Source: Filomicrobium sp.
Lineage (GTDB): Bacteria; Pseudomonadota; Alphaproteobacteria; Rhizobiales; Hyphomicrobiaceae
Direction of reading: 5' to 3'
Assembly (NCBI GenBank): GCA_017792465.1
Contig: CP051234.1
Coordinates: forward strand, 2,946,501-3,010,500
Length of the DNA: 64,000 nt
The position numbers were made by a program, and so were the translations under genes. The notes beneath the pieces were generated by a model, which was not told where the DNA came from, did no database searches, and saw only the letters and a program-made list of their open reading frames with translations. Every line of letters begins with the position of its first letter. Within the stretch, counting starts at the first letter, position 1. This document shows positions 38,458 through 54,121 of this stretch, in pieces.

Positions 38458-38523
38458 CTTCCAATGGCTTGGCTAAAGCGCTAGGGTCCGGCCTCGGATC
38501 GGTTCATTTACAAAGAAAGCAAG

Positions 38524-39510: not shown

Positions 39511-39564
39511 GCTTGCGTTGATTGTCGGTTTGCTCTGCGGCATCAGCGCATGACCAAGAAAAAA

Positions 39565-39592
39565 GCGCCGGCATTGCTGCCGGCGCTTTTTA
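39565..39592 (+). terminator. Intrinsic terminator after the DMT transporter
   Basis: GCGCCGGCA and TGCCGGCGC form a perfect nine-bp stem with a TTGC loop. It is preceded by A-rich and followed by T-rich sequence (AAAAAA before, TTTTTA after), so it could work in both directions. Confidence 0.88.
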
Positions 39593-40200
39593 GTACCCCG
39601 CGTAGTCTGATCCTGTTCATTTTCTTAGATATCGGCGCCGTTACCCCCTCGGTCGCGGCGCACGCTTTTCCAGGATTTCCTTCAAATGCAACGGTCCAAA
39701 ACTTTGCCCTCTCGAACCGCTGCAGACGCATCTTTCTGCCGGTCGGTGACGTTCAATTCAAGTGCTGATTTGGGGGTGCGATGATTTTGTCGTGCGTGGT
39801 CGGATCGCGGTTTTTTTAATGAACGCAGTTCGACGGTGGAGCGCCAGATTCGGGGTGGCTGGACGCGGCTGATTGATATTCCGGAACGGTTCCCGAGCGG
39901 TCGAAATTCGTTACTGTATACTTAGACTTATTTTGTTCTGAAGGCATCGTTCGTCGCTTGATCAGAACAGCGCGGTGCATCGCGTGGCCGGTTTTTAGAC
40001 GGCGCCGCCATGAGAGGTTCTTGAACGAATTGTGACGACTTGGCCACGGTCGGTTGTGGACAGTAAGTGTGCCCAGATTCTTTCGTCGCAGCTCTTCTTG
40101 TTGAATACGTCGGCTGGAGCGAAGCGGCAAAAAAATACGTGCTGCCAAACCGATGACTGGAGCGGCATCGGCGCGTTGCGTTTGGACCTGCCAAACAGCA

Positions 40201-40230
40201 AAAAAACCGGTCGCAGCGTGTGCGACCGGT
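40201..40230 (-). terminator. Intrinsic terminator after the reductase gene
   Basis: Read on the minus strand, ACCGGTCGCA pairs perfectly with TGCGACCGGT over a five-base loop and is followed by TTTTTT. It lies about 70 bases beyond the stop of the ketopantoate-reductase-like gene. Confidence 0.88.
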
Positions 40231-40302
40231 TCTTCGAGATCATAGTGTTGGACTTTCGATCAGTGCTTTGCAGCTTGCCGTCGAGCAGGCGCGCGGTTCG
40301 GT

Positions 40303-41307
40303 TCAGGCGCCGCCTTCAAATTCCGGGAAGACGGGATAGACGCCGGCGACGCGGCCCATTTGCTGGGTGAGCGCCAGAACGACATCCATTGTCGGTGTTG
40401 GAACGTCGACGAGGCGGCCCATTTCAACGACCGCCGTCAGGAGCGCATCGAGTTCGAGCTTGCGGCCTTTCTCCAAGTCCTGCAGCATCGATGTGCGGTG
40501 TGCGCCGACCGAGGCTGCGCCATTGATACGGCGTTCGATGTCGACGCGGAAATCAGCGCCCATCTTGCGGGCAAGCGTTTCGGCCTCCGTCATCATGCCG
40601 TGAGCAATAGCACGTGTGCCGGGGTCGGTTGCGACGACGTCGAGCGTTGCGTGCGTCAGTGCCGAAATCGGGTTGAAGCACAGGTTGCCCCAGAGCTTCA
40701 GCCAGATGTCATCGCGGATCTGTTCGTAGACGCGGCATTTGAGGTTAGCTGCTTCCAAAGCGGATGCCAGCTTCTTAACGCGGTCGCTGATCTCGCCGTT
40801 GGGTTCGCCAAGGTTATAGCGGTCGCCATAGGTGTGGGTGATGACGCCGGGCTCGGTGATCTCGGCGGCGGGGTAAACGGTGCAGCCGATGGCGCGTTCC
40901 GGACCGATTGCTTTCCACTGACGTCCGCCTGGATCGACGCTTTGGATCTGTTTGTTTTCCCAAGGGCCCTTGAGGCCGTAGAAATACCACCAGGGAATGC
41001 CGTTTTGCGCCGTGACGACGTGCGTGTCTGGCCCAAGAAGCGGGACCATATGTTCGGCGGCATCCCAAGCCTGGTGCGATTTGACTGCTACGATGACGTA
41101 GTCGTGGACGCCGAGGTCGGCGGGGTCCTTGGCAGCGCGGACTTTGGCGACTTTTTCCTGGCCGCCGATGATGAGCTTGAGGCCATTTTGCTTGATGGCT
41201 TCGAGGTGCGCGCCTCTGGCAACGACCGAAACGTCAACGCCGGCGTCCGCCAGCAGTACCGCCAAATGCGCGCCAATTGCGCCCGCCCCGTAGACACAGA
41301 CTTTCAT
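40303..41307 (-). CDS. Ketopantoate reductase family protein; candidate oxalyl-CoA reductase
   Basis: A 334-residue NAD(P)H-dependent reductase of the ApbA/PanE family. The Rossmann motif GAGAIG (7-12) and the catalytic Lys-x3-Asn in KLWGNLCFNPISALT (Lys204, Asn208) are present. The C-terminal substrate domain is longer than in housekeeping PanE, with HRTSMLQDLEKGRKLELDAL near residue 290. In Methylobacterium extorquens a PanE paralogue (PanE2) is reported to reduce oxalyl-CoA to glyoxylate. Here the gene lies beside a formyl-CoA transferase and a ThDP decarboxylase/lyase gene, not pantothenate genes, so oxalyl-CoA is the inferred substrate. A perfect palindrome sits 40 bases upstream of its ATG. 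Confidence 0.82.
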   Translation of the reverse strand: MKVCVYGAGAIGAHLAVLLADAGVDVSVVARGAHLEAIKQNGLKLIIGGQEKVAKVRAAKDPADLGVHDYVIVAVKSHQAWDAAEHMVPLLGPDTHVVTAQNGIPWWYFYGLKGPWENKQIQSVDPGGRQWKAIGPERAIGCTVYPAAEITEPGVITHTYGDRYNLGEPNGEISDRVKKLASALEAANLKCRVYEQIRDDIWLKLWGNLCFNPISALTHATLDVVATDPGTRAIAHGMMTEAETLARKMGADFRVDIERRINGAASVGAHRTSMLQDLEKGRKLELDALLTAVVEMGRLVDVPTPTMDVVLALTQQMGRVAGVYPVFPEFEGGA

Positions 41308-41346
41308 ATGTCTCGCTCCCCAGACTTACGTGTTGATTGATTTTGG

Positions 41347-41360
41347 GCTGGTATACCAGC
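41347..41360. promoter_or_regulatory. Predicted GntR/FCD operator before the reductase gene
   Basis: GCTGGTATACCAGC is a perfect 14-base palindrome, 40 bases upstream of the reductase ATG. Its core TGGTATACCAG recurs at 46450-46460 before the gntR gene. FCD-type GntR regulators often bind TGGTATACCA-like sites. Confidence 0.65.
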
Positions 41361-41422
41361 AGCTATAGGTAGTCAAAAGTCTTATTGTCGCTGTGTGAAA
41401 TCCTTATCGCGACTTTTTGCTT

Positions 41423-42616
41423 TCATGCGATCTGTTTTACGCGCGCTGTCTCGACGGCGAGGCGGACGGCTTGCTGCATCGAGTCTGTCTGTTCGAAGCT
41501 GATGCCCGCGCCTTCTAGCCGGACGGCGGCGAACTCGGCGTTGTTGCCAGCGAAGCGGGTGATGATGGGCACTTTGCGCGGCGCGCGGCAAGCCGCAATG
41601 GCGATGCCTTCGGCGATGGTATCGCAGCGCTGCATGCCGCCACCGTGGACGTTGACGAGGAGAACTTTGGTGCGTGGGTTCGTCAGCACGAGTTCGACAC
41701 CGTAGGCGATATCCAAGCTGGTCGCGGTGGTGCGGATGTCCATGAAGTTCGCGGGTTTGGCGCCTTCGTCATGGAGCATGTCGAGGGTGCTGAGAGCTAA
41801 GCCCGCACCGTTAACGACGATTCCAATCGATCCGTCCAACGCTGCGTAATTGAGCTGGTGGCGGTCCGCGGCAAGTTCGTTGGGATCGTCTTCGTCATCG
41901 CTCACCGCGTTTCTGTAGGCGGCGAGATTTGGGTGACGGAACAACGCATGGTCGTCGATTTGAAGTTTTGCGTCGAGGGCGACGAACTTGTTGGAAGGGG
42001 TCAGCGCCAGTGGGTTTATCTCGACCTGGACAGCGTCAATTTCGTAGGCAAGCTTTGCCATCTTGCGGAATATGGCTGCTGCTTTTTCGGTGAGGTCGGC
42101 TGGCAGGCCCAAATGGCGTGCGGCGTTTTCAAAGTCGCCTTCGAGCCCGGCATCGGTTAGCCGCAATGGCGTTGTCTCGATGAGATCCGGGTCGAGCGCT
42201 GCGCGCTTTTCAATGCCCGATCCGCCCGAACGGCTGGTCAGCAGGGCCATTGACGATGTGCTCTGGTCGAGGATGACGGCGGCGTAAATCTGCAATGCAA
42301 CCGGGATCGATTCTTCAATCAGCAGCCATCGGACGGGTTCGATCTTTTGGTGTGAGCCTTCGGCTGCGGCCTTGCGCGACATCTCGAAGATATCTTGAGC
42401 GGTCGCTGCCACGCCTGAGGGAGAGGCAGCAAAGCGAATGCCGCCTTCGGCTTGGCGTTCGATTGTTCGCACCTGGGCTTTGACGACGTAGCGCGGGTAG
42501 TCCAGCCTGCTGGCGACCTTCTGGGCGTCCTCGGACTGCCCGACAATACGGCCACGGGGAATGGCGATTTCAAACCGCTCAAGGATTTCCTTCGCTTGGT
42601 ATTCATGAAGGTGCAT
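41423..42616 (-). CDS. Divergent SucC/MtkA-like acid-CoA ligase beta subunit, no alpha partner
   Basis: A 397-residue homologue of succinyl-CoA synthetase/malate thiokinase beta subunits, recognised from MHLHEYQAKEIL at the start, IEINP-like VQVEINPLAL, LDAKLQIDDHALFRHP, VNGAGLALSTLDM and the C-terminal VNVHGGGMQRCDTIAEG. The frame extends to 42760 but the family start is the ATG at 42616. Two signature loops differ: the ATP-grasp loop HAGGRGKAGG is replaced by RTIERQAEGG, and the DVGGGAT loop by DIRTTAT. No SucD/MtkB gene is adjacent. It may have changed substrate or lost catalysis. It shares the divergent operator region with tctC. Confidence 0.78.
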   Translation of the reverse strand: MHLHEYQAKEILERFEIAIPRGRIVGQSEDAQKVASRLDYPRYVVKAQVRTIERQAEGGIRFAASPSGVAATAQDIFEMSRKAAAEGSHQKIEPVRWLLIEESIPVALQIYAAVILDQSTSSMALLTSRSGGSGIEKRAALDPDLIETTPLRLTDAGLEGDFENAARHLGLPADLTEKAAAIFRKMAKLAYEIDAVQVEINPLALTPSNKFVALDAKLQIDDHALFRHPNLAAYRNAVSDDEDDPNELAADRHQLNYAALDGSIGIVVNGAGLALSTLDMLHDEGAKPANFMDIRTTATSLDIAYGVELVLTNPRTKVLLVNVHGGGMQRCDTIAEGIAIAACRAPRKVPIITRFAGNNAEFAAVRLEGAGISFEQTDSMQQAVRLAVETARVKQIA

Positions 42617-42978
42617 AGTGCGAAACTCGTTGCTGCAGTTTGTTATTGTGACGAGCGGGTGAGAGGGGGAAAAGTTCTCAGCTGGGTGTGGTGGGTATTT
42701 GCTCTTTGGTGTGCTTATGAGCCCTGCGCAAGCATGCCTTGACATTACCTGTAAACGCAATTTGCGTTTTCGCCACGAAGCTCACAATCTTAAACGAATG
42801 TCGAAAAAGCGTTGCGTGGGTATGCTTCTTGGCATATTGTATTCCAAGGGGCGCGCAAATGTCGCATGACCTTGTTGTCGCCCACTACTAAGCGCAAGAC
42901 AAAAAGGCACAGGTTGGAGGGAACCAAAACAATCCTTCGGCCTGCGTACAAAGCGAAGCGCAAAAGGGAGGAATTTTG
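42617..42978. promoter_or_regulatory. Divergent promoter region, SucC-like gene / tctC
   Basis: About 360 bases between the two start codons. It contains the 21-base inverted-repeat operator candidate at 42828-42848 and, before tctC, a strong ribosome site (GGGAGGAAT). No gene is supported in it. Confidence 0.6.
42828..42848. promoter_or_regulatory. Predicted GntR/FCD operator in the tctC upstream region
   Basis: CTTGG and CCAAG form an inverted repeat around CATATTGTATT. The same architecture (TCTGG-N11-CCAGA around CATATGGTATA) occurs at 46441-46461 before gntR; TGGCATATnGTATnCCA is common to both. It lies 130 bases before the tctC ATG. Confidence 0.6.
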
Positions 42979-43977
42979 ATGCTTCAACGTCGTGGACGGA
43001 CTCTGGGGTTCGCCCTGGGTACGGTTGGCGCAGCCGCGTTGACCGCCGGACTTTGCTCGGCAGCATTTGCTGAGTGGAAGCCACAAAAGCCTATCGAATT
43101 TGTTGTCATGGCAGGCAAAGGCGGCGGCGCCGACAAGGCAGTCCGCTTTATGCAGTCGATTATTGCTAAAGAAAAACTGGCTCCGGTTCCGGTTATTCCG
43201 GTCAACAAGCCAGGTGGGTCGGGTGCTGAAGCTCTTGTCTATATGAAAGGCAAAAAGGGCGACGACCATACGATCATGTTCACCTTGAACTCGTTCTATA
43301 CGACTCCGCTGCGTCAGCCGGCGCTGGGTGTCGACATCACCGAGTTCACGCCAGTGATGCGCATGGCCGAAGACACGTTCTGCCTGTGGGTCAACACCGA
43401 CAAGAAAGACATCAACTCGGTTGATGACTTTGTGAAAGCGGCCAAGGCTGCTGGCAAAAAATGGATCATGGCCGGTACGGGTAAGGCATCTGAAGATAAC
43501 CTTCTGACCGACTACCTGAACACCACCTACGGCCTTGATATGAAGTACGTTCCTTACAAAGGCGGCGGAAAGGTTGCCAAGGAATTGGCCGGCAACAACG
43601 CGAACTCGACGGTCAACAACCCGTCCGAGCAGGAACCATTCTACAAGACAGGCGACGCCAAAAACAAAACCAAGCCGCTTGCCTGCTTCACGCCTGAACC
43701 GATCTATGATGGTGTTCCGACCTTCAAGGATCTGGGCAAAGACTTCGTCTACTTCATGCAGCGTTCCGTCGTCGGTGCGCCTGGCATGAGCGCTGAGGCA
43801 GCTGCCTACTATCAGGACCTCTTCACAAAGGTCTTCAACTCGAAAGACTGGCAGAACTATCGCACCAAGAAGAAGCTTCAGGGTGAAGCGCTTTCTGGCG
43901 ACAAGCTGATGGCATACTGGAAGCACGAAAATGAAGTGCACGAAGGTATGTTGAAGGAAATGGGCGCTATTAAATAA
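42979..43977 (+). CDS. tctC: Tripartite tricarboxylate transporter substrate-binding protein
   Basis: A 332-residue periplasmic binding protein of the TctC/Bug family. An N-terminal signal peptide ends near AAFA/EWKPQKP (about residue 31). The mature protein has FVVMAGKGGGADKAVRFM, the loop around VIPVNKPGGSGAEAL and YVPYKGGGKVAKELAG, the usual carboxylate-binding loops. The ATG at 42979 follows GGGAGGAAT. First gene of tctC-tctB-tctA; Bug proteins bind small di- and tricarboxylates. The context suggests oxalate or a related acid, which would be unusual for this transporter class. Confidence 0.9.
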   Translation: MLQRRGRTLGFALGTVGAAALTAGLCSAAFAEWKPQKPIEFVVMAGKGGGADKAVRFMQSIIAKEKLAPVPVIPVNKPGGSGAEALVYMKGKKGDDHTIMFTLNSFYTTPLRQPALGVDITEFTPVMRMAEDTFCLWVNTDKKDINSVDDFVKAAKAAGKKWIMAGTGKASEDNLLTDYLNTTYGLDMKYVPYKGGGKVAKELAGNNANSTVNNPSEQEPFYKTGDAKNKTKPLACFTPEPIYDGVPTFKDLGKDFVYFMQRSVVGAPGMSAEAAAYYQDLFTKVFNSKDWQNYRTKKKLQGEALSGDKLMAYWKHENEVHEGMLKEMGAIK

Positions 43978-43992
43978 GTGCCCCAATGTTAC

Positions 43993-44021
43993 CCCGGTCG
44001 GGCTTTCATGGCCCGGCCGGG
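43993..44021 (+). promoter_or_regulatory. Intercistronic hairpin between tctC and tctB
   Basis: CCCGGTCGGGC and GCCCGGCCGGG form an 11-bp stem (one G-U pair) with a seven-base loop. No T-run follows. A stable hairpin after a binding-protein gene typically protects its mRNA so that more binding protein than membrane protein is made. Confidence 0.55.
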
Positions 44022-44154
44022 TTGCCGCTTTAGCGGCCTGATTTAGCTCAACACTTGACGATGACCAGTTTCACTCTGCGGCATGGATTTGCCGCGGGAA
44101 CAGCGCCTTGCGGCCTGATTAGAGCTGGACCGTCACCCTTTTAGGGGATGCGCG

Positions 44155-44688
44155 ATGACTGTGCGGACTGCAGAGCTTCTCATGGGGCTCGCCCTAGCGA
44201 TCTTATCTGCTTACTTCATGTGGAAGAGCGCCGAGCTTCCGATCATGTGGGTGCCGGAAGTCGGCCCCGGCGGCGGCTCCTGGCCGTTCTGGCTCTCGGC
44301 AGCCATGTTTGGGTCCTGTATCTGGATCCTGATCAACTGGGTTCGTCGGATCGGCCCAGTTGCCAATAACGAAGAACCTTTCTTTGAACCTGGGCTTTTT
44401 GCGCCGGTCGCATATGTCGCCGGGGCTCTTTTGATCTGCGTTGCTCTGATTGAGGGAATCGGAGTCGGCGGCTTCAAGGGCATCGGTTTTTATGGGTCGC
44501 TGCCGCTGTTCTTGATCTTCTATATCAGGTTCATGGGCAAACATTCCTGGGTGGCGACAATTGCTGCGGCGATCACCATTCCGGTCGTGACGTTCTTGTT
44601 CTTCGAACTGATGTTGAACATCACCCTGCCCAAGGGAATGACAGAGCCACTCTTCCTAAAAATCTTCGCGCTCTACTACGGGCTCTAG
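44155..44688 (+). CDS. tctB: Tripartite tricarboxylate transporter small membrane subunit
   Basis: A 177-residue protein with four predicted membrane helices (near 8-24, 42-60, 82-100 and 118-150) typical of TctB. MVTxxx is not needed here: the ATG at 44155 (MTVRTAELLMGLALAIL) opens directly on the first helix. The sequence W..EVGPGGGSWPFWLS between helices 1 and 2 is the most conserved stretch. It works with TctA and TctC in secondary, cation-driven uptake of carboxylates. Confidence 0.88.
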   Translation: MTVRTAELLMGLALAILSAYFMWKSAELPIMWVPEVGPGGGSWPFWLSAAMFGSCIWILINWVRRIGPVANNEEPFFEPGLFAPVAYVAGALLICVALIEGIGVGGFKGIGFYGSLPLFLIFYIRFMGKHSWVATIAAAITIPVVTFLFFELMLNITLPKGMTEPLFLKIFALYYGL

Positions 44689-44804
44689 CGCGAGAGCATT
44701 TGCGCCGGTGGCGGCCGGCGCCTTGAGGCAAGAAACAGGATCTCGGTCGAATTCGACCTGAGGCTTCCCAATTACAACGGACGCAACAAAAGAAGCTTCG
44801 TGAC

Positions 44805-46346
44805 ATGTTTGAAATTCTAGGACTGCTCGTACAAGGCTTTGGAGTCGCCTTGCAGCCGTTCAACCTGATGTTGATCATTCTCGGCTGTGGCGTTGGACTG
44901 TTTATCGGCGCAATGCCGGGGCTTGGTTCGGTCAACGGCGTCGCGATTTTGCTGCCGCTGACCTTTCTGGTGCCGCCGGATGGCGCAATCATCTTCCTGG
45001 CCGCGATCTATTACGGGGCCATGTATGGCGGCGCGGTTTCGTCGATTCTGCTCGGTATTCCGGGTGCATCGACGGCGGTTGCGACGACCTTCGATGGTCG
45101 TCCGCTGGCCAAACAGGGATTGGCCGACAAGGCGTTGACGACGGCTGCGCTGGCGTCATTCGTCGGCGGTACGATTTCGGTCATCCTGTTCACCTTCTTT
45201 GCTCCGCCGCTGGCGCATGTCGCGCTGACGTTCGGCGCGCCGGAGGAATTCTCCTTGATGATGTTGGCTTTCGCCACCTTCGTCGGGTTGGGCGGAGACG
45301 ACATCGCCAAGACGATCTTCTCGATCTGCATCGGGCTGGTGCTTGCTGCGGTCGGTCTGGACATCATGTCGGGTGCGCCGCGTCTGATCTTCGGTGACCT
45401 GCCGGGCTTCATGCACGGTATCAACTTCCTCGTTCTGGCTATCGGTATCTATGGCATCGGTGAGATGTTGTGGACGGTCGAAGAGAACGCGCGGGCTGGC
45501 GGCAAAAGTATGTTGTCGGAAGCGAACATGACCTGGGAGCGGACGAAGAAGAACGTTTCTGAGTTCACGGGTACGTGGAAAATCACTTCGTTGTCTTCTG
45601 TACTCGGTTACTTCGTCGGCATTCTGCCGGCTGCCGGGGCGACGCCTGGCTCGCTGATGGCCTATGGCATCGCCAAGCAGATGGTCAAGAATCCTGAAAA
45701 GTTCGGCAAAGGCGCCATCGAAGGCGTTGCGGCTCCTGAAGCTGCCAACAACGCGGCGAGTACCGGTTCGATGTTGCCGATGTTGACCCTTGGTATTCCC
45801 GGTTCTCCAACGACGGCTATTCTTCTGGGTGGCATGGTCATTTGGGGACTGGAGCCGGGACCGCGCTTGTTCAGTTCCAACCCGGACTTCGTCTGGGGCT
45901 TGATTGCTTCGCTTTACGCGGCAAACGTCTTCGCACTTATTCTCAACGTGCTTTTGATCCCGGCGTTCATCTGGGTCCTGAAGTTGCCGTTCACGATCCT
46001 TGCTCCAATCATTCTGACGCTGTGTCTGGTTGGCGGTTATGCGCCGACGCAGGACATGCACGATCTTTGGTTGATGCTCGTCTTCGGCATCGTCGGGTAT
46101 CTCCTGCGCAAGCTCGACTATCCGGTTGCTCCTGCGGTTCTTGCCATTGTGCTTGGTCCGCTGGCTGAGCCTTCCTTGCGCCAATCGCTTTTGATCAGCG
46201 GTGGTGATCCGATGATCTTCTTCAACCGTCCGTATTCGGGACCGATCATGGTGGTCGCGCTGATCCTGCTCTTCATGCCTGCATTCTTCATGGCCTATCG
46301 CTTGATCCGTGGTGGCCGTCCCGGAAATGCGACGAGTGGAGTCTGA
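44805..46346 (+). CDS. tctA: Tripartite tricarboxylate transporter large membrane subunit
   Basis: A 513-residue permease with about twelve membrane helices. The two TctA signatures are clear: FIGAMPGLGSVNGVAILLPL near residue 35 and the repeated EAANNAASTGSMLPMLTLG with IPGSPTTAILLGGM near residue 310-340. YYGAMYGGAVSSILLGIPG is the other hallmark. It is 116 bases after tctB and is followed by the gntR gene, so the transporter belongs to the island. Transport is expected to be proton- or sodium-coupled. Confidence 0.93.
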   Translation: MFEILGLLVQGFGVALQPFNLMLIILGCGVGLFIGAMPGLGSVNGVAILLPLTFLVPPDGAIIFLAAIYYGAMYGGAVSSILLGIPGASTAVATTFDGRPLAKQGLADKALTTAALASFVGGTISVILFTFFAPPLAHVALTFGAPEEFSLMMLAFATFVGLGGDDIAKTIFSICIGLVLAAVGLDIMSGAPRLIFGDLPGFMHGINFLVLAIGIYGIGEMLWTVEENARAGGKSMLSEANMTWERTKKNVSEFTGTWKITSLSSVLGYFVGILPAAGATPGSLMAYGIAKQMVKNPEKFGKGAIEGVAAPEAANNAASTGSMLPMLTLGIPGSPTTAILLGGMVIWGLEPGPRLFSSNPDFVWGLIASLYAANVFALILNVLLIPAFIWVLKLPFTILAPIILTLCLVGGYAPTQDMHDLWLMLVFGIVGYLLRKLDYPVAPAVLAIVLGPLAEPSLRQSLLISGGDPMIFFNRPYSGPIMVVALILLFMPAFFMAYRLIRGGRPGNATSGV

Positions 46347-46358
46347 ATAATAATTTGG

Positions 46359-46422
46359 CCGGGGCCCTCGAGAGATTTTTCGAAGCGAAATCAAAGCTGA
46401 AAAAATTTCATCAGGGCCCCGG
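46359..46422. repeat. Long-loop inverted repeat after tctA
   Basis: CCGGGGCCCT (46359-46368) and AGGGCCCCGG (46413-46422) are exact inverted copies enclosing 44 bases, within which GATTTTTCG and CGAAATC can form a smaller stem. It lies between the tctA stop and the operator before gntR. It may be a bipartite terminator or a structured leader. Confidence 0.55.
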
Positions 46423-46440
46423 TAATTTACTTGAGTCGTT

Positions 46441-46461
46441 TCTGGCATATGGTATACCAGA
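46441..46461. promoter_or_regulatory. Predicted GntR/FCD autoregulatory operator
   Basis: TCTGG-N11-CCAGA encloses the palindrome TGGTATACCA. It shares TGGTATACCAG with the site before the reductase gene and TGGCATATnGTATnCCA with the site before tctC. It lies about 135 bases before the gntR ATG. Confidence 0.65.
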
Positions 46462-46596
46462 GGCAAGGATTAGAAGACCGGGGCGGGCATTCGACGCTTC
46501 TCAAGCGGCTCGCGTCAGTCAGATCCGGTAGGTCGTTTCATCATCGTAAGGTGACTGCGAGGCTTCGACCGGATTGTAAGTCCCCCGAGGGGTGAG

Positions 46597-47283
46597 ATGG
46601 CGATGAAGCGTCTTTCCGTAGAGCCAATCGGCGAAAGCCAAAGCCTCAAGGCGAGAGCCTATACGGCCTTGAAGGCGGCGATCACGGAAATGAATATTTA
46701 TGACAGCAATGTCGAGCTGCGGCTCGATGAGCGCGACCTGTCGGCAAGGTTCGGCATTTCCAGAACGCCGTTGCGCGAGGCTCTTGCGCAGCTTGATCAG
46801 GAAGGTCTTGTCAAAGTCGTCGCGCGTCGTGGGATCTTTATCGTCCGCAAAACGAAGGCCGAGATCATGGAGATGATCACGGTCTGGGCGGCTCTTGAAA
46901 GTATGGCAGCCCAGCTGGCTTGCGATGGCGCCAGCGACGAAGAAATCGCACAACTGCACGAGTTGGTCGACGAGTTCAGCCAGGACGCCGTTGCGCGCCG
47001 GATGGGTGAGTACTCAGACGCCAACATCACGTTTCACCAGGCGATCATCAACCTTGGCGGCAATCAGCTGATCAAGGACATCACCGATGGCCTGTTCGTC
47101 CATGTGCGCGCGATCCGCAACCGGGCGATATTCGAGAAGGATCGCGCAAAACGCTCACTTGCTGATCACAAGGACATTATCGAGGCTTTGGAAGCCCGCA
47201 ACCCGGAACGGGCCGGACGGCTTGTCCGGGACCACACGGTTCGCCTGCGCGATCACGTCGATCAGTTCGTTGAGATCGAATAA
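46597..47283 (+). CDS. GntR-family (FCD subfamily) transcriptional regulator
   Basis: A 228-residue regulator. The N-terminal winged helix is LKARAYTALKAAI...LDERDLSARFGISRTPLREALAQLDQEGLV, read in parts, with the recognition helix SRTPLREAL. The C-terminal FCD effector domain has metal-ligand histidines in NITFHQAIINLG, the HVRAIRN segment and LADHKDIIEALEARN. FCD regulators usually bind small carboxylates and release DNA. It lies between tctA and the ThDP enzyme gene, and three matching palindromes in the island are its probable sites. Confidence 0.92.
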   Translation: MAMKRLSVEPIGESQSLKARAYTALKAAITEMNIYDSNVELRLDERDLSARFGISRTPLREALAQLDQEGLVKVVARRGIFIVRKTKAEIMEMITVWAALESMAAQLACDGASDEEIAQLHELVDEFSQDAVARRMGEYSDANITFHQAIINLGGNQLIKDITDGLFVHVRAIRNRAIFEKDRAKRSLADHKDIIEALEARNPERAGRLVRDHTVRLRDHVDQFVEIE

Positions 47284-47334
47284 CGAAGAAGGAACGGGGT
47301 CTTTAGTGCCCCTAATTGACATGGGAGGCTGCTC

Positions 47335-49080
47335 ATGGCGGCAACTGCAACCACTACGAACACTGCCGACGATACCCTGGCCAGGAAGAGTGCGGATCCG
47401 AACATCGTCTCCGGTGGCCGCCTTGCCGCCAAGGCGCTGAAGAACGAAGGCGTCGATACGATCTTTACGCTGTGCGGCGGTCACATCATCGACATCTATG
47501 ACGGTTGCATCGACGAAGGCATTCGCATCATCGACGTTCGGCATGAGCAGGTCGCAGCGCACGCGGCTGACGGCTATGCCCGCCAGACCGGCAAGCTCGG
47601 TTGCGTTGTGACGACGGCAGGGCCCGGCTGCACCAACGCTGTTACGGGTGTTGCTACGGCGTTTCGTTCGGAAAGCCCGATCATCCACATCGGCGGTCAG
47701 GGATCGCTGACGCAGCACCGCATGGGTTCGCTTCAGGACCTTCCGCACGTCGACATGATGCGGCCGATCACGAAGTTCGCCGACAGTGTGCGCTCGACCG
47801 AGCGCGTCGCCGATATGATTTCGATGGCGGCTCGCGAGTGCTTCGCTGGCGCTTATGGTCCGGCCTATTTGGAAATTCCTCGCGACGTTCTCGACCGTGA
47901 GGTTCACATCGACACCGCTGTCGTTCCAAAGCCTGGTTCCTACCGCGCCTCGGTCCGTTCGATCGGCGACCCGAACGATGTCGAGAAGCTGGCCGACCTG
48001 CTTGTCAACGCGGAACGTCCTGCGATCCTGCTCGGGCAGCAAGTCTTCGCAACACGCGGTCACGAAGAAGCCATCGCTCTGCTTCGCGGTCTCGACATCC
48101 CCGGATACTTCAATGGCGCCAGCCGCGGTATGCTGCCGCCAGGCGATGAGCATCACTTCGACCGCACGCGTTCGCTGGCGTTCAAGAATGCCGACGTCAT
48201 CGTCATCGTCGGGACACCGTTCGATTTCCGTATGGGTTACGGCAAGCGTATTTCGCCAGACGTCAAGCTCGTTCAGATCGACCTCGACTACAAGACCGTC
48301 GGTAAGAACCGCGACATCTCGCTGGGTCTCGTCGGGCACCCTGGTGCGATCCTCGGCGCCGTTCTGGATGCGGCTTCGGCGAAGATCGACAACGGCAAGC
48401 GCCAGGCGCGCAAGCAGTGGATGTCGAAGCTGCGTGAAGCTGAAGCAGCAGCCCTTGAAAAGCTAATGCCGCTCTTCACCTCTGACCGCTCGCCGATCCA
48501 TCCGTTCCGTGTGGCTTGGGAAATCAACGAATTCCTCGGCGAGGACACCATTTACATCGGCGATGGCGGTGATGTCGTGACGATTTCGGCGCAGGCCGTG
48601 CGTCCGCGTGGCCCCGGCCAGTGGATGGACCCAGGCGCTCTGGGCTCGCTCGGTGTCGGTACCGGTTTCGCGCTTGCGGCCAAGCTGGCGCATCCGAACA
48701 AGGAAGTCATGTGCTACTACGGCGACGGTTCGTTCGGCATGACGGCTTTCGACATGGAAACGGCTAACCGCTTCGGCGCACCTTATCTGGCGGTCATCGG
48801 CAATAACTCGGCGATGAACCAGATCCGTTACGGCCAGATCTCCAAGTATGGCGAGCAGCGCGGCAACATCGGCAACCTCCTGGCTGACGTGCCGTTCTCC
48901 AAGTTCGCTGAAATGCTGGGCGGCTATGGCGAAGAGGTGCACAACGCCGACGACATCCAGCCGGCTCTGCAGCGGGCTCGCGAGCAGATCGCCAAGACCG
49001 GCAAGTCTGCTGTCGTCAACATCTGGGTCGACCCGACCGAATATGCGCCGGGCACCAAGAACCAGACGATGTACAAGTAA
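47335..49080 (+). CDS. ThDP-dependent enzyme of the oxalyl-CoA decarboxylase / 2-hydroxyacyl-CoA lyase family
   Basis: A 581-residue three-domain ThDP enzyme. The catalytic Glu71 lies in RHEQVAAHAADGYAR. The ThDP/Mg motif is GDGSFG (463-468) ending near NN at 489. The position beside formyl-CoA transferase argues for oxalyl-CoA decarboxylation to formyl-CoA. However, the sequence differs from classical Oxc: it has FTLCGGHIIDIYDG where Oxc has YGxxGIP, and DGSFGMTAFDMETANRF where Oxc has EGDSAFGFSGMEVETICRY-type residues. It looks closer to acetolactate-synthase-like 2-hydroxyacyl-CoA lyases, which also release formyl-CoA. An ATG with GGGAGG starts it. C-terminus ends APGTKNQTMYK. Confidence 0.75.
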   Translation: MAATATTTNTADDTLARKSADPNIVSGGRLAAKALKNEGVDTIFTLCGGHIIDIYDGCIDEGIRIIDVRHEQVAAHAADGYARQTGKLGCVVTTAGPGCTNAVTGVATAFRSESPIIHIGGQGSLTQHRMGSLQDLPHVDMMRPITKFADSVRSTERVADMISMAARECFAGAYGPAYLEIPRDVLDREVHIDTAVVPKPGSYRASVRSIGDPNDVEKLADLLVNAERPAILLGQQVFATRGHEEAIALLRGLDIPGYFNGASRGMLPPGDEHHFDRTRSLAFKNADVIVIVGTPFDFRMGYGKRISPDVKLVQIDLDYKTVGKNRDISLGLVGHPGAILGAVLDAASAKIDNGKRQARKQWMSKLREAEAAALEKLMPLFTSDRSPIHPFRVAWEINEFLGEDTIYIGDGGDVVTISAQAVRPRGPGQWMDPGALGSLGVGTGFALAAKLAHPNKEVMCYYGDGSFGMTAFDMETANRFGAPYLAVIGNNSAMNQIRYGQISKYGEQRGNIGNLLADVPFSKFAEMLGGYGEEVHNADDIQPALQRAREQIAKTGKSAVVNIWVDPTEYAPGTKNQTMYK

Positions 49081-49094
49081 GACCTTGTATTTTG

Positions 49095-49119
49095 CGTGGG
49101 GGCTTTTAAAGCCCTCACG
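49095..49119 (+). promoter_or_regulatory. Intercistronic hairpin 1 downstream of the ThDP gene
   Basis: CGTGGGGGCT and AGCCCTCACG pair over ten bases (one G-U) with a five-base loop, 15 bases after the stop. No T-run follows, so it is more likely an mRNA-stabilising element than a full terminator. Confidence 0.5.
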
Positions 49120-49201
49120 TGAGATGTTACTCAACTAAAGTCGAGGAACGACGGGGTCGCCGTCGGGCTCGCAAAGAACAAAACAATCAACCGGGTATTC
49201 G

Positions 49202-49220
49202 GAGCGGTCATGAACCGCTC
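49202..49220 (+). promoter_or_regulatory. Intercistronic hairpin 2 upstream of frc
   Basis: GAGCGGT and ACCGCTC form a perfect seven-bp stem around CATGA, 31 bases before the frc ATG. It could influence frc translation. Confidence 0.45.
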
Positions 49221-49250
49221 GGAGCAACTACCGTAAGGGGCTTAAAGAAA

Positions 49251-50528
49251 ATGTCTAAAGCGCTCGATGGCGTCAAGATCCTCGATTTCACGCACGTCCA
49301 GTCAGGACCGACCTGTACGCAGCTTTTGGCCTGGTTTGGCGCTGACGTGATCAAGGTCGAGCGGCCTGGCGTCGGCGATGCGACGCGCAAGCAGCTGGTT
49401 GATGTCGAAGGCGCCGACAGCCTCTATTTCACGATGCTGAACCACAACAAGCGCTCGATCACGCTCAACACCAAGAACGAAAAGGGCAAGGAAGTCCTCG
49501 AGCGGCTGGTCAAGACCTGCGACGTTCTGGTTGAGAACTTTGCACCAGGTGCGCTCGACCGCATGGGTTTTTCCTGGGAACGCATCCAGGAAATTAACCC
49601 GCGCATGATCATGGCGTCGGTCAAAGGATTTGGTCCTGGTCCCTATGAGGACTGCAAGGTTTACGAGAACGTTGCACAGTGCGCTGGTGGTTCGGCCTCG
49701 ACGACCGGCTTCCTCGATGGTCCGCCGGTCGTCACGGGTGCGCAGATCGGTGACTCGGGCACCGGTCTTCATCTCGCGCTTGGCATCATGACGGCGCTCT
49801 TCCATCGTGAGCGCACCGGTAAGGGTCAGAAGGTTCTAGCGCCAATGCAGGATGGCGTTTTGAACCTGTGCCGCGTCAAGCTGCGCGATCAGCAGCGCCT
49901 CAAGGCCGGCCCGCTGAAAGAATACTCGCAGTTTGGCGAAGGCATTCCGTTTGGTGAAGCGACGCCGCGCGCAGGCAACGATTCTGGTGGCGGTCAGCCC
50001 GGACGCATTCTCAAATGCAAAGGCTGGGAAACCGATCCCAACGCCTACACCTATTTCATTACCCAGGCTGCGGTTTGGGAGAAGATCTGCGACGTCATCG
50101 GCGAGCCGGAATGGAAAACGAAGGCTGGCTACGCAACGCCGCCTGAACGCCTCGACAAGCTCAATGAGATCTTCGAGCGCATCGAGCAGTGGACGATGAC
50201 CAAGTCCAAGTTCGAAGTCATGGAAATCTGCAACCCGCTCGATATTCCTGTCGGTCCAATTCTGTCCATGAAGGAAATTGCCGAGGACGAAGGTCTGAGG
50301 AAAACGGGTACGGTCGTTGAAGTCGATCACCCCGAGCGTGGTCCTTATCTGACGGTCGGCAGCCCGATCAAGTTCTCGGGCATGGATGTCGAAGTGAAGC
50401 GCTCGCCACTTCTGGGCGAACATACGGCTGAAATTCTGAAAGATGTTCTGGGTTACTCCGAGGAAGAAGTCGAAGAACTCAAGTCCACTGGCGTTACCGA
50501 CGTGGTCAAGAAGATCGCTGCGGAATAA
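49251..50528 (+). CDS. frc: Formyl-CoA:oxalate CoA-transferase (family III)
   Basis: A 425-residue CoA-transferase that moves CoA from formyl-CoA to oxalate. Similarity to Oxalobacter Frc is strong throughout: [39 protein letters not shown], the catalytic Asp168 in [10 protein letters not shown], the glycine-rich loop GGGQPG and [14 protein letters not shown]. The frame extends to 49119 but [13 protein letters not shown] at 49251 is the family start. Close match to true Frc rather than generic CaiB proteins supports an oxalyl-CoA/formyl-CoA pathway for the island. Followed by the formyltransferase-like gene. Confidence 0.9.
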
Positions 50529-50552
50529 CGCTCAATCATAACAACAAGAGCT

Positions 50553-50578
50553 GGTGGACCGGCTTCGTGCGGTCCACC
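50553..50578 (+). promoter_or_regulatory. Intercistronic hairpin after frc
   Basis: GGTGGACCG and CGGTCCACC form a perfect nine-bp stem with an eight-base loop, 24 bases after the frc stop and 55 before the next ATG. No T-run follows. Confidence 0.5.
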
Positions 50579-50633
50579 GAAACTGAAACTCAATTCGCTC
50601 CGACGGAACATTCCGGGCGGAAAGGGAGTACGC

Positions 50634-51557
50634 ATGCGTATCGTGGTTCATGGCCAGCAGGCCTTTGGCAAGGCGGTGCTCGAGAAGCTGCTTGAGCGCG
50701 GCGAAAATGTTGTGGCTGTTTGTTGTGCGCCGACCAAGGAAGGCAAGCCGGAAGATCCGCTTGCCGAGCTCGCTCGCGAAAAAGGTCTGCCCGTCCATCA
50801 GCCGGCTTCATGGAAGACGCCGGAAGCGCTCGAACTGATGAAGTCGTTCGACGCTGATGTATGCATGATGGCATACGTGTTGTTGTTCGTGCCCGAAGAA
50901 GTTCGCGATGCGCCGCGCTATGGGACGTTCCAGTATCACCCTTCGCTGTGCCCCTGGCACCGTGGTCCGTCGGGCATCAACTGGCCGATCGCGATGGGCA
51001 AGAAGCACACTGGCCTGACGATCTTCTGGCCGGATGATGGTCTAGATGAAGGTCCGATCTTCCTGCAGAAGACTTGCGAAATTGGCCCTGATGAAACGCT
51101 GGGCGATGTATACTTCAAGAAGTTGTTCCCGATGGGCGTCGACGCCATGCTCGAGTGTCTCGACATGGTCAAGGCCGGCGTCATTCTCAAGCATACTCAG
51201 GACCTTGAAGCCGGCTCTTATGAGAGCTGGTTCTCCAAAAAGGTCGCGCAGCTCGATTGGTCGAAGTCGGCTGACGAATGCTACAACTGGATCAGAGCCG
51301 CCAACCCGCAGCCGGGCGCCTGGACGACGGTCAATGGCACGCAGCTTGCCATTTTCGATGCCGCCAAGGTCGATGGATCGGGCAAGCCTGGTGAAATTCT
51401 GAGCATCTCCGAAGAAGGTGTCGTTATTGCCGCAGCCGACGGTGCAGTCCTGGCCAAGCGGGTCAGACCGGGTAAGGATGCGAAGGTAACGGGTGCGGAA
51501 TGGGCACAAGCCTCGGGTCTGAAGGTTGGCGATGTGTGCGAACGGGTCGAACAATAA
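50634..51557 (+). CDS. Stand-alone formyltransferase/10-formyl-THF hydrolase-like protein
   Basis: A 307-residue protein with an N-terminal formyl-transferase domain and a C-terminal Fmt-like OB domain. It matches the N-terminal hydrolase part of 10-formyl-THF dehydrogenase (ALDH1L1) better than Fmt: YHPSLCPWHRGPSGINW and TIFWPDDGLDEGPIFLQK are diagnostic. His102 and Asp138 correspond to the catalytic His106 and Asp142 of that enzyme, with the same 36-residue spacing. No acyl-carrier or aldehyde-dehydrogenase domain follows. Between frc and formate-THF ligase it could hydrolyse 10-formyl-THF, or exchange formyl groups between CoA and THF; the second is only a hypothesis. Confidence 0.8.
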   Translation: MRIVVHGQQAFGKAVLEKLLERGENVVAVCCAPTKEGKPEDPLAELAREKGLPVHQPASWKTPEALELMKSFDADVCMMAYVLLFVPEEVRDAPRYGTFQYHPSLCPWHRGPSGINWPIAMGKKHTGLTIFWPDDGLDEGPIFLQKTCEIGPDETLGDVYFKKLFPMGVDAMLECLDMVKAGVILKHTQDLEAGSYESWFSKKVAQLDWSKSADECYNWIRAANPQPGAWTTVNGTQLAIFDAAKVDGSGKPGEILSISEEGVVIAAADGAVLAKRVRPGKDAKVTGAEWAQASGLKVGDVCERVEQ

Positions 51558-51623
51558 CGATCGGGCCAACGCTACTGGCATTCGCATTCAAAAGACGTGT
51601 GTGAAGGAAAAGGAAACGCTCCA

Positions 51624-53300
51624 ATGTCTGTAAAATCCGATATCGAGATTGCCCGCGAGGCATCGATGCGCCCCATCGCTGAGGTCGCAGAAAAAATCGA
51701 TGTTACAAGCGACGCACTTTTGAACTATGGGCCCTACAAGGCAAAGATCTCCGCAGAATTCATCGACAGCCTGAAGGACCGCCCCGACGGCAAGCTGATC
51801 CTGGTGACGGCGATTTCGCCGACCCCGGCTGGCGAAGGCAAAACGACGACGACGGTCGGTCTCGGCGACGGCCTTAACCGCATCGGCAAGAAAGCGATGA
51901 GCTGCCTGCGCGAGCCATCGCTTGGCCCGTGCTTTGGCGTCAAGGGCGGTGCGGCCGGCGGCGGCTACTCGCAGGTCGTGCCGATGGAAGACATCAACCT
52001 GCACTTCACCGGTGACTTCCACGCGATCACGTCGGCGAACAACCTACTGGCTGCGCTCATCGACAACCACATCTATTGGGGCAACTCGCTGGGCATCGAC
52101 GCGCGCCGTGTCGCTTGGCGCCGGGTCATCGATATGAACGACCGCGCGCTGCGCCAGATCACCAACTCGCTGGGTGGCGTTGCCAACGGCTTCCCGCGCC
52201 AGGATGGTTTCGACATCACGGTTGCGTCCGAAGTCATGGCCATTTTGTGCCTGGCGAATGACCTGAAGGATCTTCAGCGCCGTCTCGGCAACATCGTCGT
52301 CGCCTATACGCGTGAGAAGAAGCCGGTTCTGGCGCGCGATCTGAAGGCCGACGGTCCGATGACCGTTCTGCTGAAAGATGCGCTGATGCCGAACCTGGTG
52401 CAGACGCTTGAAAACAACCCCGTGTTCATCCACGGCGGTCCGTTCGCCAACATCGCGCACGGCTGTAACTCGGTTCTTGCCACCAAGACCGCGCTGAAGC
52501 TTTGCGATTATGTGGTGACGGAAGCAGGTTTCGGCGCCGACCTCGGTGCTGAGAAGTTCTTCGACATCAAGTGCCGCATGGCCGGCTTGAAGCCATCGGT
52601 TGTCGTGCTTGTTGCAACGATCCGCGCATTGAAGATGCACGGTGGCGTTGCCAAGGACGAACTCAAGGCGGAGAACGTCGAGGCCGTCAAGAAGGGTGCC
52701 GCCAACATGCAGCGCCACCTTGAGAACCTGCGCAAGTTCGGCGTGGCACCGGTTGTTGCGATCAACAAATTCATCTTCGATACGGATGCTGAAGTCGAGG
52801 CTGTCAAAGCGGCCGCAGAAGCTGCCGGTGCGAAAGCCTTCCTTGCCAACCACTGGGCAGACGGCGGCGCCGGTATCGAAGAAGTTGCAAAGCACGTCGT
52901 CGAGCTGGCTGACGCCGGTCAGTCCGAATTCAAGACGCTCTATCCCGATGAGATGCCTCTGTGGGATAAGATCAAGACGATCGCGACCGAGATCTATCGC
53001 GCTGAAAACGTCACAGGCAGTGCTGCTGTCATGAACCAGGTGAAGGATCTGCAGGATGCCGGTTATGGCCATCTGCCGATCTGCGTAGCGAAAACGCAGT
53101 ACTCGTTCTCGACCGACCCCAACAAGCGCGGCGCGCCGACGGGTCACGAGATCCCGGTGCGTGAGGTGATCCTTGCTGCCGGTGCCGAGTTCATCGTGGC
53201 TGTCTGCGGTGACATCATGCGGATGCCGGGTCTGCCGCGGAAACCGTCGGCTGAGGTGATTATGCTTAACGAAGAAGGGCAGATCGAAGGTCTGTTCTAA
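51624..53300 (+). CDS. fhs: Formate--tetrahydrofolate ligase
   Basis: ATP-dependent formation of 10-formyl-THF from formate; called ftfL in methylotrophs. The 558-residue protein has the P-loop [15 protein letters not shown] (66-80), the segment [34 protein letters not shown] and the later [14 protein letters not shown] and [12 protein letters not shown]. The frame reaches 51597; the ATG at 51624 ([13 protein letters not shown]) is the family start. It closes the operon: a clean terminator follows. In a serine-cycle methylotroph this is the entry of formate into assimilation, so its place in this operon links formyl-CoA breakdown to C1 assimilation. Confidence 0.96.
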
Positions 53301-53329
53301 GCGATAAGCTTAACCCTCAAAGAGAAATT

Positions 53330-53358
53330 GGCCGGTGGCGCAAGCTGCCGGCCTTTTT
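53330..53358 (+). terminator. Intrinsic terminator closing the island
   Basis: GGCCGGTGGC and GCTGCCGGCC form a ten-bp stem (two G-U pairs) with a GCAA tetraloop, followed by TTTTT. It lies 30 bases after the formate-THF ligase stop. Confidence 0.88.
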
Positions 53359-53429
53359 GTTTGGGGTGTTTTTGTGAGAGGATAGGGCGTGCGCAGACTT
53401 CTTGATGCGGATCAGGGGAGGCTTAAGTT

Positions 53430-54059
53430 TTGAATTTGCGGATTATCGGTTTGGCCGGGTTGCTCGGTCTGGTGGCGTTTACGTTCTTGACCGTCGATGC
53501 GGCGCCGACGCGGGCGCAGGGGAATTACTGCGAGGATCTCTGGTATCAGCGCAATCGGATTTTTGCGGCTCGCGGGTATTGTTTTGGCAGCCCCAAGGGA
53601 CAGGCGGCGTTTCCGAATTCGTGCTTTCCGCCTTACGGGGAGCTGACTGCGGCTGAGCGGCAGCTGGTGGGCTATATCAAATCGCTCGAAGCGCAGGCTG
53701 GTTGCGGCAGCGCTCAGGGTTCGAATGTCGTACAGGGCATGCTGCCGATCATTATCGGCGGCGATGATTACGATGCTTGCGCGAGTTCGGGCGAGGTCGT
53801 CGGGTTGAAAGTCAGCGGCGATGGATTCCTGGCCGTGCGCGCCTCACCGAACGGAACCGAGGTCGATCAGATCTATAACGGTCAGCAGATCTATCTTTGC
53901 AACCAGATCGGTGGCTGGATGGGGATCGTTTATCCCAAGCCCGGGCAGGATGCTTCCCAGTGCAATGTTTCGACCCCTTGGGGGACGCGTCAGCAGTATT
54001 CAGGCCCATGCGGTTTCGGATGGGTGTCGCGCAAATATATCCGGATTATTGCAGGCTGA
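53430..54059 (+). CDS. Secreted YARHG/SH3-domain protein
   Basis: A 209-residue protein starting at a TTG preceded by GGGGAGG. A signal peptide (LAGLLGLVAFTFLTVDAA, about 7-24) leads to a YARHG-type cysteine motif, CEDLWYQRNRIFAARGYCF, closed by AAFPNSCF. After a linker, residues about 120-209 resemble a bacterial SH3 domain (LAVRASPNGTEVDQIYNG, GWMGIVYP, GFGWVSRKYI). Such proteins are periplasmic and often bind peptidoglycan. The pairs of cysteines suggest disulfides. Not part of the island operon, which terminates upstream. Confidence 0.7.
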   Translation: MNLRIIGLAGLLGLVAFTFLTVDAAPTRAQGNYCEDLWYQRNRIFAARGYCFGSPKGQAAFPNSCFPPYGELTAAERQLVGYIKSLEAQAGCGSAQGSNVVQGMLPIIIGGDDYDACASSGEVVGLKVSGDGFLAVRASPNGTEVDQIYNGQQIYLCNQIGGWMGIVYPKPGQDASQCNVSTPWGTRQQYSGPCGFGWVSRKYIRIIAG

Positions 54060-54087
54060 GGGGAGCGCAGGCGAGCCAGGACAAACC

Positions 54088-54105
54088 GTGCCGGCTCGCC
54101 GGCAC
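54088..54105. terminator. Weak convergent terminator
   Basis: GTGCCGG and CCGGCAC pair perfectly over a CTCG loop, followed by TCCATTTTCT. It lies between the convergent stops of the SH3 and RND genes. The T-run is imperfect. Confidence 0.4.
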
Positions 54106-54121
54106 TCCATTTTCTCTCGTC

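Follow-up and report, generated by a model that had tools for sequence, protein, structure and literature searches.

The nearest described relatives of the locus reported here are the canonical oxc-frc islands for oxalate catabolism, known from E. coli and, as oxalyl-CoA decarboxylase (OXC) islands, from Cupriavidus and Hyphomicrobiaceae. The locus is an island of ten intact open reading frames between two terminator-like hairpins, at 40303-53300 of a 64,000-nucleotide stretch (called the window below) from the 4.47-Mb, single-contig genome of Filomicrobium sp. (GCA_017792465.1, contig CP051234.1, positions 2,946,501 to 3,010,500); the genes were identified from an open reading frame (ORF) list and family profile matches. 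It shares with the canonical islands the formyl-CoA:oxalate CoA-transferase Frc and a slot for a thiamine enzyme and, with part of the canonical loci, the neighbours GntR, PanE, FAH, SucDC, and a transporter. In contrast to them, the putative decarboxylase of the window, a non-canonical thiamine-diphosphate enzyme designated ThDP*, belongs to a separate clade without the canonical motifs, the transporter TctCBA is present rather than the carrier OxlT, and a formyltransferase-like protein, FmtH, together with formate-tetrahydrofolate ligase (Fhs), is present rather than an ATP-grasp acyl-CoA ligase (ACD; Pfam assignment). In relatives, islands with canonical OXC also contain TctCBA and FmtH-Fhs, so that ThDP* alone is the swap.

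Other described systems resemble parts of the island. Oxalate assimilation by oxalyl-CoA reduction in Methylorubrum extorquens and Cupriavidus necator, as presented in parts of PMC7486775, likewise involves a PanE/ApbA-type CoA-acylating glyoxylate dehydrogenase encoded near frc-oxc and yields formate and glyoxylate, whereas FmtH, ThDP*, and TctCBA, all found in the window, are not mentioned in those parts. There, deletion of frc-oxc in C. necator abolished growth on oxalate, and deletion of the PanE-like gene apbA2 slowed it. The 2-hydroxyacyl-CoA lyase (HACL) systems (PMC7176365, in part) include the closest solved relative of ThDP*, and their reaction yields formyl-CoA. However, ThDP* falls below the NCBIfam HACL cut-off, the acid/base Glu is apparently lost, and none of the ten window genes is hcl or mpd by family matches, other loci not having been searched for these two genes. 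The hydrolase domain of 10-formyl-tetrahydrofolate (10-formyl-THF) dehydrogenase (FDH; ALDH1L1) and the N-terminal domain of HypX/HoxX have the same fold and His/(Ser)/Asp machinery as FmtH. In the relevant passages of PMC6802093, the FDH domain is stated to hand the formyl group of 10-formyl-THF to the phosphopantetheine thiol of its carrier and HypX is proposed to do likewise with CoA, similar to what we propose for FmtH. FmtH differs in being a stand-alone protein tied to oxalate genes. Finally, E. coli YfdE, an acetyl-CoA:oxalate CoA-transferase, has been presented as a "primer" meeting the same need, the supply of oxalyl-CoA when formyl-CoA is short, and oxalate catabolism has been argued to require such a primer under that scarcity (PMC3720670, in part). 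In the window, the proposed primer would instead be formyl-THF supplied through Fhs and FmtH or, in sister islands, the ACD ligase.

The most far-reaching reading of the island is tentative, and we rate it somewhat below an even chance. It holds that decarboxylation of oxalyl-CoA arose twice, ThDP* using other active-site residues and being exchanged with OXC as a single-gene cassette, and that FmtH would be a new enzyme, a formyl-CoA:tetrahydrofolate formyltransferase linking the pools of formyl-CoA and formyl-folate; in some lineages it is fused to Fhs, and it would take the place of an ATP-dependent ligase. The oxalate island itself is real, conserved, and known in kind, and it contains parts that are without earlier assignment in the literature searched. 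For ThDP* as an oxalyl-CoA decarboxylase, for FmtH, and for oxalate uptake by a TTT transporter, no description was found in the open-access literature searched, subscription journals lying mostly outside that search. The genes are as follows, two on the minus strand and eight on the plus strand.

40303-41307, minus: PanE/ApbA-type reductase, probable oxalyl-CoA reductase (CoA-acylating glyoxylate dehydrogenase); NF005089 479 bits (cut-off 223), PF02558/PF08546
41423-42616, minus: SucC-like ATP-grasp beta subunit without neighbouring alpha subunit; PF08442/PF00549, below the SucC and malate-CoA ligase equivalog cut-offs
42979-43977, plus: TctC, TTT transporter binding protein, probable oxalate binder; PF03401
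44155-44688, plus: TctB, small membrane subunit; PF07331
44805-46346, plus: TctA, large membrane subunit; PF01970 501 bits
46597-47283, plus: GntR-FCD regulator, probable island regulator; PF00392, PF07729
47335-49080, plus: ThDP*, probable substitute oxalyl-CoA decarboxylase; TIGR03254 213 bits (cut-off 739), OXC slot in genome G008, separate clade
49251-50528, plus: Frc, formyl-CoA:oxalate CoA-transferase; TIGR03253 707 bits (cut-off 504), 61% identical to E. coli Frc/YfdW
50634-51557, plus: FmtH, formyltransferase of the FDH hydrolase-domain type, probable formyl-CoA:THF formyltransferase; sequence and fold matches, linkage
51624-53300, plus: Fhs, formate-tetrahydrofolate ligase; NF010030 932.9 bits (cut-off 652)

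A sequence-only reading of the window had placed an eight-gene set here; the families that it named are present at the place given, as intact frames, and the set comprises ten genes. Its outline, in which an acid is imported, converted to its CoA ester, split or reduced, and its formyl group passed to tetrahydrofolate (THF), is borne out, and the acid that it left unnamed is very probably oxalate. It had also not recognized the combination as a described system. The island is, however, a form of a described kind because Frc passes the oxalate-specific model, the run from tct to fhs occurs with canonical OXC in another genome of the genus, and OxlT occurs in sister islands; in the literature searched, the putative substitute decarboxylase, the putative formyl-CoA/THF enzyme, and the presumed TTT uptake of oxalate were not found described.

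We consider it likely that the island serves oxalate uptake, degradation, and assimilation. Frc passed the oxalate-specific equivalog TIGR03253 above its cut-off of 504.2 bits, and oxalate-type neighbours surround ThDP* elsewhere. On a Phyllobacterium plasmid, ThDP* lies between oxlT (one small hypothetical gene intervening) and frc, and genes for SucCD, BhcR, and a PanE reductase are nearby; in Streptomyces fungicidicus it is accompanied by sucDC, frc, ACD (here a gene of the acetate-CoA ligase family), and a carrier of the OFA family. An 18-kb region of a Paracoccaceae plasmid carries a GntR-type regulator, oxc, frc, fmt, fhs, TctB, TctA, PanE, glyA, hprA, and folD with a few other genes interspersed, and also a gene annotated "soluble hydrogenase 42 kDa subunit", which we take to be serine-glyoxylate aminotransferase. 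These enzymes would route oxalate carbon via glyoxylate and formyl-folate to serine and glycerate. The Filomicrobium genome likewise holds homologues of this presumed aminotransferase and of formate dehydrogenase.

The position of ThDP* was then compared with that of canonical OXC. In the same-genus genome G008, the run reads tctCBA-gntR-OXC-frc-fmtH-fhs, its stretch ending inside the SucC-like gene, short of where a PanE gene might lie. The window and G008 align in collinear blocks of 66-79% DNA identity, with breaks also in intergenic stretches, and of the tctC-to-fhs genes, ThDP* alone falls wholly in an alignment gap (47241-49256). The protein in the G008 slot is 26% identical to ThDP* and 60% identical to E. 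coli OXC, and the neighbouring GntR and Frc are 86% and 87% identical between the two genomes. The two enzymes also tend to exclude each other. Among 40 genomes of the genus Cupriavidus, OXC over the cut-off was found in 27, ThDP* in ten, both in none, and neither in three (Fisher p 3e-7; the p values here for exclusion and co-occurrence ignore common descent). Among 99 genomes of the order, including the Filomicrobium genome, ThDP* occurred in 20 and OXC in 33 (31 over the cut-off), with one genome holding both (p 0.0014). Part of the canonical islands share the neighbours PanE, GntR, Frc, FAH, SucDC, and OxlT; all six canonical Cupriavidus stretches gave GntR, Frc, FAH, and OxlT matches, with PanE in four and SucDC in two. 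Because of the slot swap, we infer that ThDP* takes over the OXC reaction, and we consider it likely, from sequence and gene order, that ThDP* is a second, separately derived oxalyl-CoA decarboxylase replacing canonical OXC.

In a tree of 30 thiamine enzymes with several long branches, ten OXC and seven ThDP* rows formed separate clades, each supported at 100/100. ThDP* was ruled out as a canonical OXC by its score (213.5 bits on TIGR03254, cut-off 739.4), motifs, and clade. Acetolactate synthase was likewise rejected; the best NCBIfam match, PRK05858, stays below its cut-off (441 of 587 bits), and ThDP* stands apart from the IlvI group in the tree. Surveys of oxalate degraders rely on oxc and frc (e.g., PMC12927642, in part). 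No OXC over the cut-off was found in 14 of 18 ThDP*-bearing genomes searched, and oxc/frc surveys would probably miss the decarboxylase where ThDP* replaces OXC. According to parts of PMC3886118, an oxc mutant of B. phytofirmans is unable to use oxalate; that oxc may encode either OXC or ThDP*.

Neighbourhoods were counted in the best 80 of 585 confirmed relatives, chosen for holding ThDP* and including many short contigs, to which four plasmid records and the window were added (85 loci; 84 where the window is left out). Neighbouring genes were scored by tblastn above 80 bits, so that divergent genes may be missed. Among the best 80 loci, the stretch holds a match to Frc in 72, GntR in 64, PanE in 33, FmtH and the SucC-like protein in 25 each, TctA in 24, TctC in 20, TctB in 16, and Fhs in 13. 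The genes thus cluster in related genomes and far beyond, contrary to the condition that the sequence-only reading had set for its own refutation, an absence of co-occurrence in relatives. Among the matches listed, the closest ThDP* proteins are from Filomicrobium (94% and 89%) and from a record titled Alphaproteobacteria (95%), and ThDP* was seen in Alpha-, Beta-, and Gammaproteobacteria and in Actinomycetota. In the last group, ThDP*-frc-ACD islands on Streptomyces and Nonomuraea records (L168, L169; 64-65% identity) suggest possible cross-phylum transfer.

Next, we analyzed FmtH. The protein is 307 aa long and contains only the Formyl_trans_N and Formyl_trans_C domains, with no carrier or dehydrogenase domain on the chain. 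Its best sequence match is the FDH hydrolase domain (192 bits, 39% identity), ahead of methionyl-tRNA formyltransferase (Fmt; 145 bits, 31%) and HoxX (65 bits, 23%), and it misses the Fmt equivalog TIGR00460 (145.8 bits, cut-off 201.5). Residues H102, S104, and D138 correspond to the FDH-domain triad His106/Ser108/Asp142 and are invariant in all 15 FmtH sequences aligned. The predicted structure (mean pLDDT 86) has the FDH hydrolase domain as its best fold match, but at 6 A rmsd. Fhs is the sole formate-tetrahydrofolate ligase found in the Filomicrobium genome.

FmtH is closely tied to oxalate genes. Among the 99 genomes of the order (E <=1e-60), it was found in 47, all of them among the 52 with OXC or ThDP* (p 9e-23, uncorrected); it was not found in any of the 47 genomes that lack both enzymes. 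Five OXC- or ThDP*-bearing genomes are without FmtH: in G004, G005, and G030 the contig ends in frc, G092 has the ACD ligase, and G056 is the fifth. Across the phylum (E <=1e-70), ten of 398 genomes had FmtH. In the nine other than the Filomicrobium genome (G091 is also among the 99), frc lies directly upstream in seven, four of them from one genus; of the remaining two, one has fhs beside FmtH and one has neither in a short stretch. In four loci of the window's family (L248-L251; genomes G019, G037, G017, and G014), FmtH and Fhs form one uninterrupted frame of 878-888 codons over the two matched parts.

Across loci, FmtH and ACD are ALTERNATIVES. Among the 85 loci, frc directly follows ThDP* in 75, and in 68 of the 75 the sequence continues for at least 1.8 kb past frc. 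In this subset of 68, the next gene is ACD in 25 and FmtH in 20, and never both. Anywhere in the stretch (84 loci), FmtH was matched in 25, ACD in 34, both in none, and neither in 25; Fhs was matched in 13, never with ACD. The Alphaproteobacteria (26 loci) include nine FmtH, three ACD, and six with neither, eight being skipped, and the Gammaproteobacteria (20 loci) include ten, three, and three, four being skipped. Among canonical-OXC stretches, one set of 19 has FmtH in 18 and ACD in one (L260), and another set of ten has neither. A straightforward reading is that ACD and Fhs plus FmtH serve one purpose, interconverting formate (or oxalate) and its CoA ester with the use of ATP. We give about an even chance to the proposal, made from homology and linkage, that FmtH would catalyze formyl-CoA + THF <-> 10-formyl-THF + CoA.

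Taken together, the parts suggest the following pathway. TctCBA would import oxalate, and Frc, for which the family evidence is strong, would convert oxalate and formyl-CoA to oxalyl-CoA and formate. ThDP* would then decarboxylate oxalyl-CoA to formyl-CoA and CO2, as the slot swap suggests, and the PanE-type reductase would, like its characterized homologues, reduce oxalyl-CoA to glyoxylate. The cycle needs another source of formyl-CoA because each oxalate that is reduced consumes a formyl-CoA that is not remade. Fhs would make 10-formyl-THF from formate, ATP, and THF in a reversible reaction, and FmtH may transfer its formyl group reversibly to CoA, so that together they would spend ATP to regenerate formyl-CoA from formate. 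Working in reverse, the pair would deliver formyl groups to the folate/serine route, which can also take glyoxylate; either dominant direction may be compatible with the sequences. If FmtH acts in this way, it is a direct bridge between CoA thioesters and folate one-carbon units. It would then account for the way in which formyl-CoA drained by the reduction of oxalyl-CoA is replenished in aerobic oxalate users, and it would be of use in engineering the assimilation of formate or oxalate.

Several observations weigh against this proposal, and they were considered together with other explanations of the same genes. The motifs QQGDYEE and NN-x-G-[IV]-Y-[RK]-G, present in all ten aligned OXC, are missing from ThDP*, which keeps the Glu of RHEQ and the C-terminal A-x-GT stretch in the alignment. 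The solved sequences nearest to ThDP* are HACLs (AcHACL, 268 bits), its LQD-P and NN-A-N stretches are AcHACL-like, and the two join weakly (85/82) in the tree of 30. The predicted structure of ThDP* is poor near the active site (pLDDT <50 at 122-149 and 492-516), and a fold search with this model ranked HACS/HACL first and E. coli OXC 20th. Furthermore, OXC over the cut-off accompanies ThDP* in the other four of the 18 genomes searched, and one of the 99 relatives holds both enzymes as well; because some genomes hold both, full equivalence is doubtful, and the two enzymes may not be interchangeable in every respect. Frc is absent from the stretch in eight of the best 80 loci and lies elsewhere in the genome in the six of these that were searched. 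Apart from the missing Frc and the missing OXC motifs, these features would suit a HACL rather than an oxalyl-CoA decarboxylase, an identity that we nevertheless regard as improbable. ThDP* stays below the curated HACL model NF058623 (351.5 bits, cut-off 600), and the AcHACL acid/base residue Glu493 (PMC13327070, in part) aligns with an Ile of ThDP*, although a local alignment shift is possible. Moreover, the OXC slot swap, the oxalate-type Frc, and the OxlT neighbours favour oxalate over a 2-hydroxyacyl-CoA, and family matches revealed no obvious aldehyde- or ketone-processing enzyme among the ten window genes. A substitute oxalyl-CoA decarboxylase is therefore the identity that we prefer for ThDP*.

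On the side of FmtH, the gene that follows frc is neither FmtH nor ACD in 23 of the 68 islands, and FmtH could instead be a 10-formyl-THF hydrolase. Its family takes in 10-formyl-THF hydrolase domains and Fmt, and the Paracoccaceae record annotates it as a methionyl-tRNA formyltransferase, so that FmtH might be a hydrolase or an auxiliary Fmt that balances the folate pool, the folate genes merely disposing of formate. We consider this unlikely, although less so than the HACL identity of ThDP*: FmtH misses the Fmt cut-off and is nearer to the FDH domain, a hydrolase fused to Fhs, as in the four genomes above, would presumably waste ATP in a closed loop, and FmtH adjoins frc even where the ~1.5 kb of sequence available beyond it holds no Fhs match. 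The gene set might also be a chance or lineage-bound neighbourhood, oxalate genes having come to lie beside unrelated TTT, SucC-like, and folate genes. Tct, FmtH, and Fhs are present in part of the loci only, and the counts come from related genomes. However, the Alpha- and the Gammaproteobacteria each contain islands of the FmtH type and of the ACD type, many loci have the operator-like palindrome considered below in front of gntR, tct, and sucC genes, and among the relatives FmtH was found only in those with OXC or ThDP*, so that a chance neighbourhood is very improbable. We thus retain a formyl-CoA:THF formyltransferase in an oxalate island as the working assignment for FmtH.

The remaining genes fit the oxalate assignment to differing degrees. 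The PanE-type protein is probably an oxalyl-CoA reductase judging from its homologues; it is 64% identical to PanE of the Phyllobacterium oxalate locus and 57-61% identical to PanE of the Cupriavidus ThDP* islands, and it lies near frc and a putative oxalyl-CoA-producing system, the setting of PanE2/ApbA2-type oxalyl-CoA reductases. The domains of the TTT transporter are complete. It is rather more probable than not that TctCBA carries oxalate, probably replacing OxlT. Among the 68 loci, an OxlT-like carrier was found in 38, TctA in 17, both in none, and neither in 13; L258, with FmtH and OxlT, and L260, with ACD and TctA, are exceptions to the pairing of these carriers with FmtH or ACD. The SucC-like gene was rejected as a complete succinyl- or malate-CoA ligase, with scores of 339 of 370 bits for SucC and 263 of 604 bits for malate-CoA ligase and no alpha neighbour in the window island. 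CoA activation by this protein, a lone beta subunit, is less likely than by Frc, and the protein is left without a role in the proposed pathway. The nearest alpha-subunit homologue in the genome is at G000 3041316, adjoining another sucC and formate dehydrogenase genes. In a number of other islands (e.g., L086, L100, L113), sucC and sucD are adjacent; they are not in the window or its close relatives.

The non-coding features of the island are listed below.

40201-40235, minus: terminator-like hairpin past the PanE gene; 15 pairs, T-rich tail
42753-42769, unstranded: near-perfect 17-bp palindrome AAACGCAATTTGCGTTT between the SucC-like gene and tctC; palindrome inspection
42831-42845, unstranded: degenerate operator-like palindrome GGTAT-N5-ATACC, 2 mismatches, upstream of tctC; motif scan
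46444-46458, unstranded: operator-like palindrome GGCATATGGTATACC, 1 mismatch, upstream of gntR; motif scan
53330-53353, plus: terminator-like hairpin closing the tct-gntR-ThDP*-frc-fmtH-fhs run; 10 pairs, TTTTT tail

The motif GGTAT-N5-ATACC, mostly in the form TGGTATA-N3-TATACCA, occurs in 41 copies in 37 of 127 stretches (2.16 Mb, the window included and eight known duplicates dropped), compared with 0.8 expected and a maximum of three in 20 mononucleotide shuffles. As shown by their positions, 40 of the 41 copies lie <=450 bp upstream of an island gene (gntR 13, tctA 7, tctC 7, sucC 7, ThDP* 3, oxlT 2, tctB 1). The motif was derived from a palindrome count before island genes of the same loci, and these figures are a description rather than an independent test. 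The window has only inexact copies, which weighs against the proposed reading of the island, and such matches are not above chance there (ten versus 6.0 expected; seven of 100 shuffles reach ten). The GntR protein probably controls the island through a candidate operator resembling TGGTATA-N3-TATACCA. The 17-bp palindrome, in contrast, is not conserved, its 13-base core being exact in only two of 270 loci, both in G055 and between gntR and oxc.

Several variants of the ThDP* and frc genes were observed. A third type of thiamine enzyme, scoring 330-337 bits on the OXC model and thus between ThDP* and OXC, is encoded at G115:C1:5815798-5817390 (L130, L182) and G132:C14:85716-87317; L182 also has a 38% Frc homologue and a 40% TctA near this enzyme. 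Genome G020 has a second OXC-like gene at G020:C30:823206-824837 (532 bits, below the cut-off), with canonical OXC elsewhere. In L044, a tandem frc pair (64% and 87% identical to the window Frc) follows ThDP*. In L077, L085, and L088, fmtH follows ThDP* directly with no frc between, frc (78-81%) lies elsewhere in the genome, and the next long ORF presumably encodes the isocitrate dehydrogenase kinase/phosphatase AceK.

The bounding terminators of the sequence-only reading were recovered at 40235-40201 (minus) and 53330-53353 (plus), which are the two most-paired terminator-like sites within 38000-55500; such sites number 31 in total, compared with 19.1 (sd 4.7) in shuffles. Antisense ORFs inside the island were rejected as genes. 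Likely starts lie internal to the mechanical ORFs for the SucC-like gene (42616, minus; its ORF reaches 42760), TctC (42979), Frc (49251), and Fhs (51624). The island is flanked by what we take to be an EamA-like transporter gene (38524-39510) and an RND efflux pump gene (54122-57475). One or both flank it likewise in several same-genus genomes, and because these flanks are shared, the island appears to occupy a stable site within the genus.

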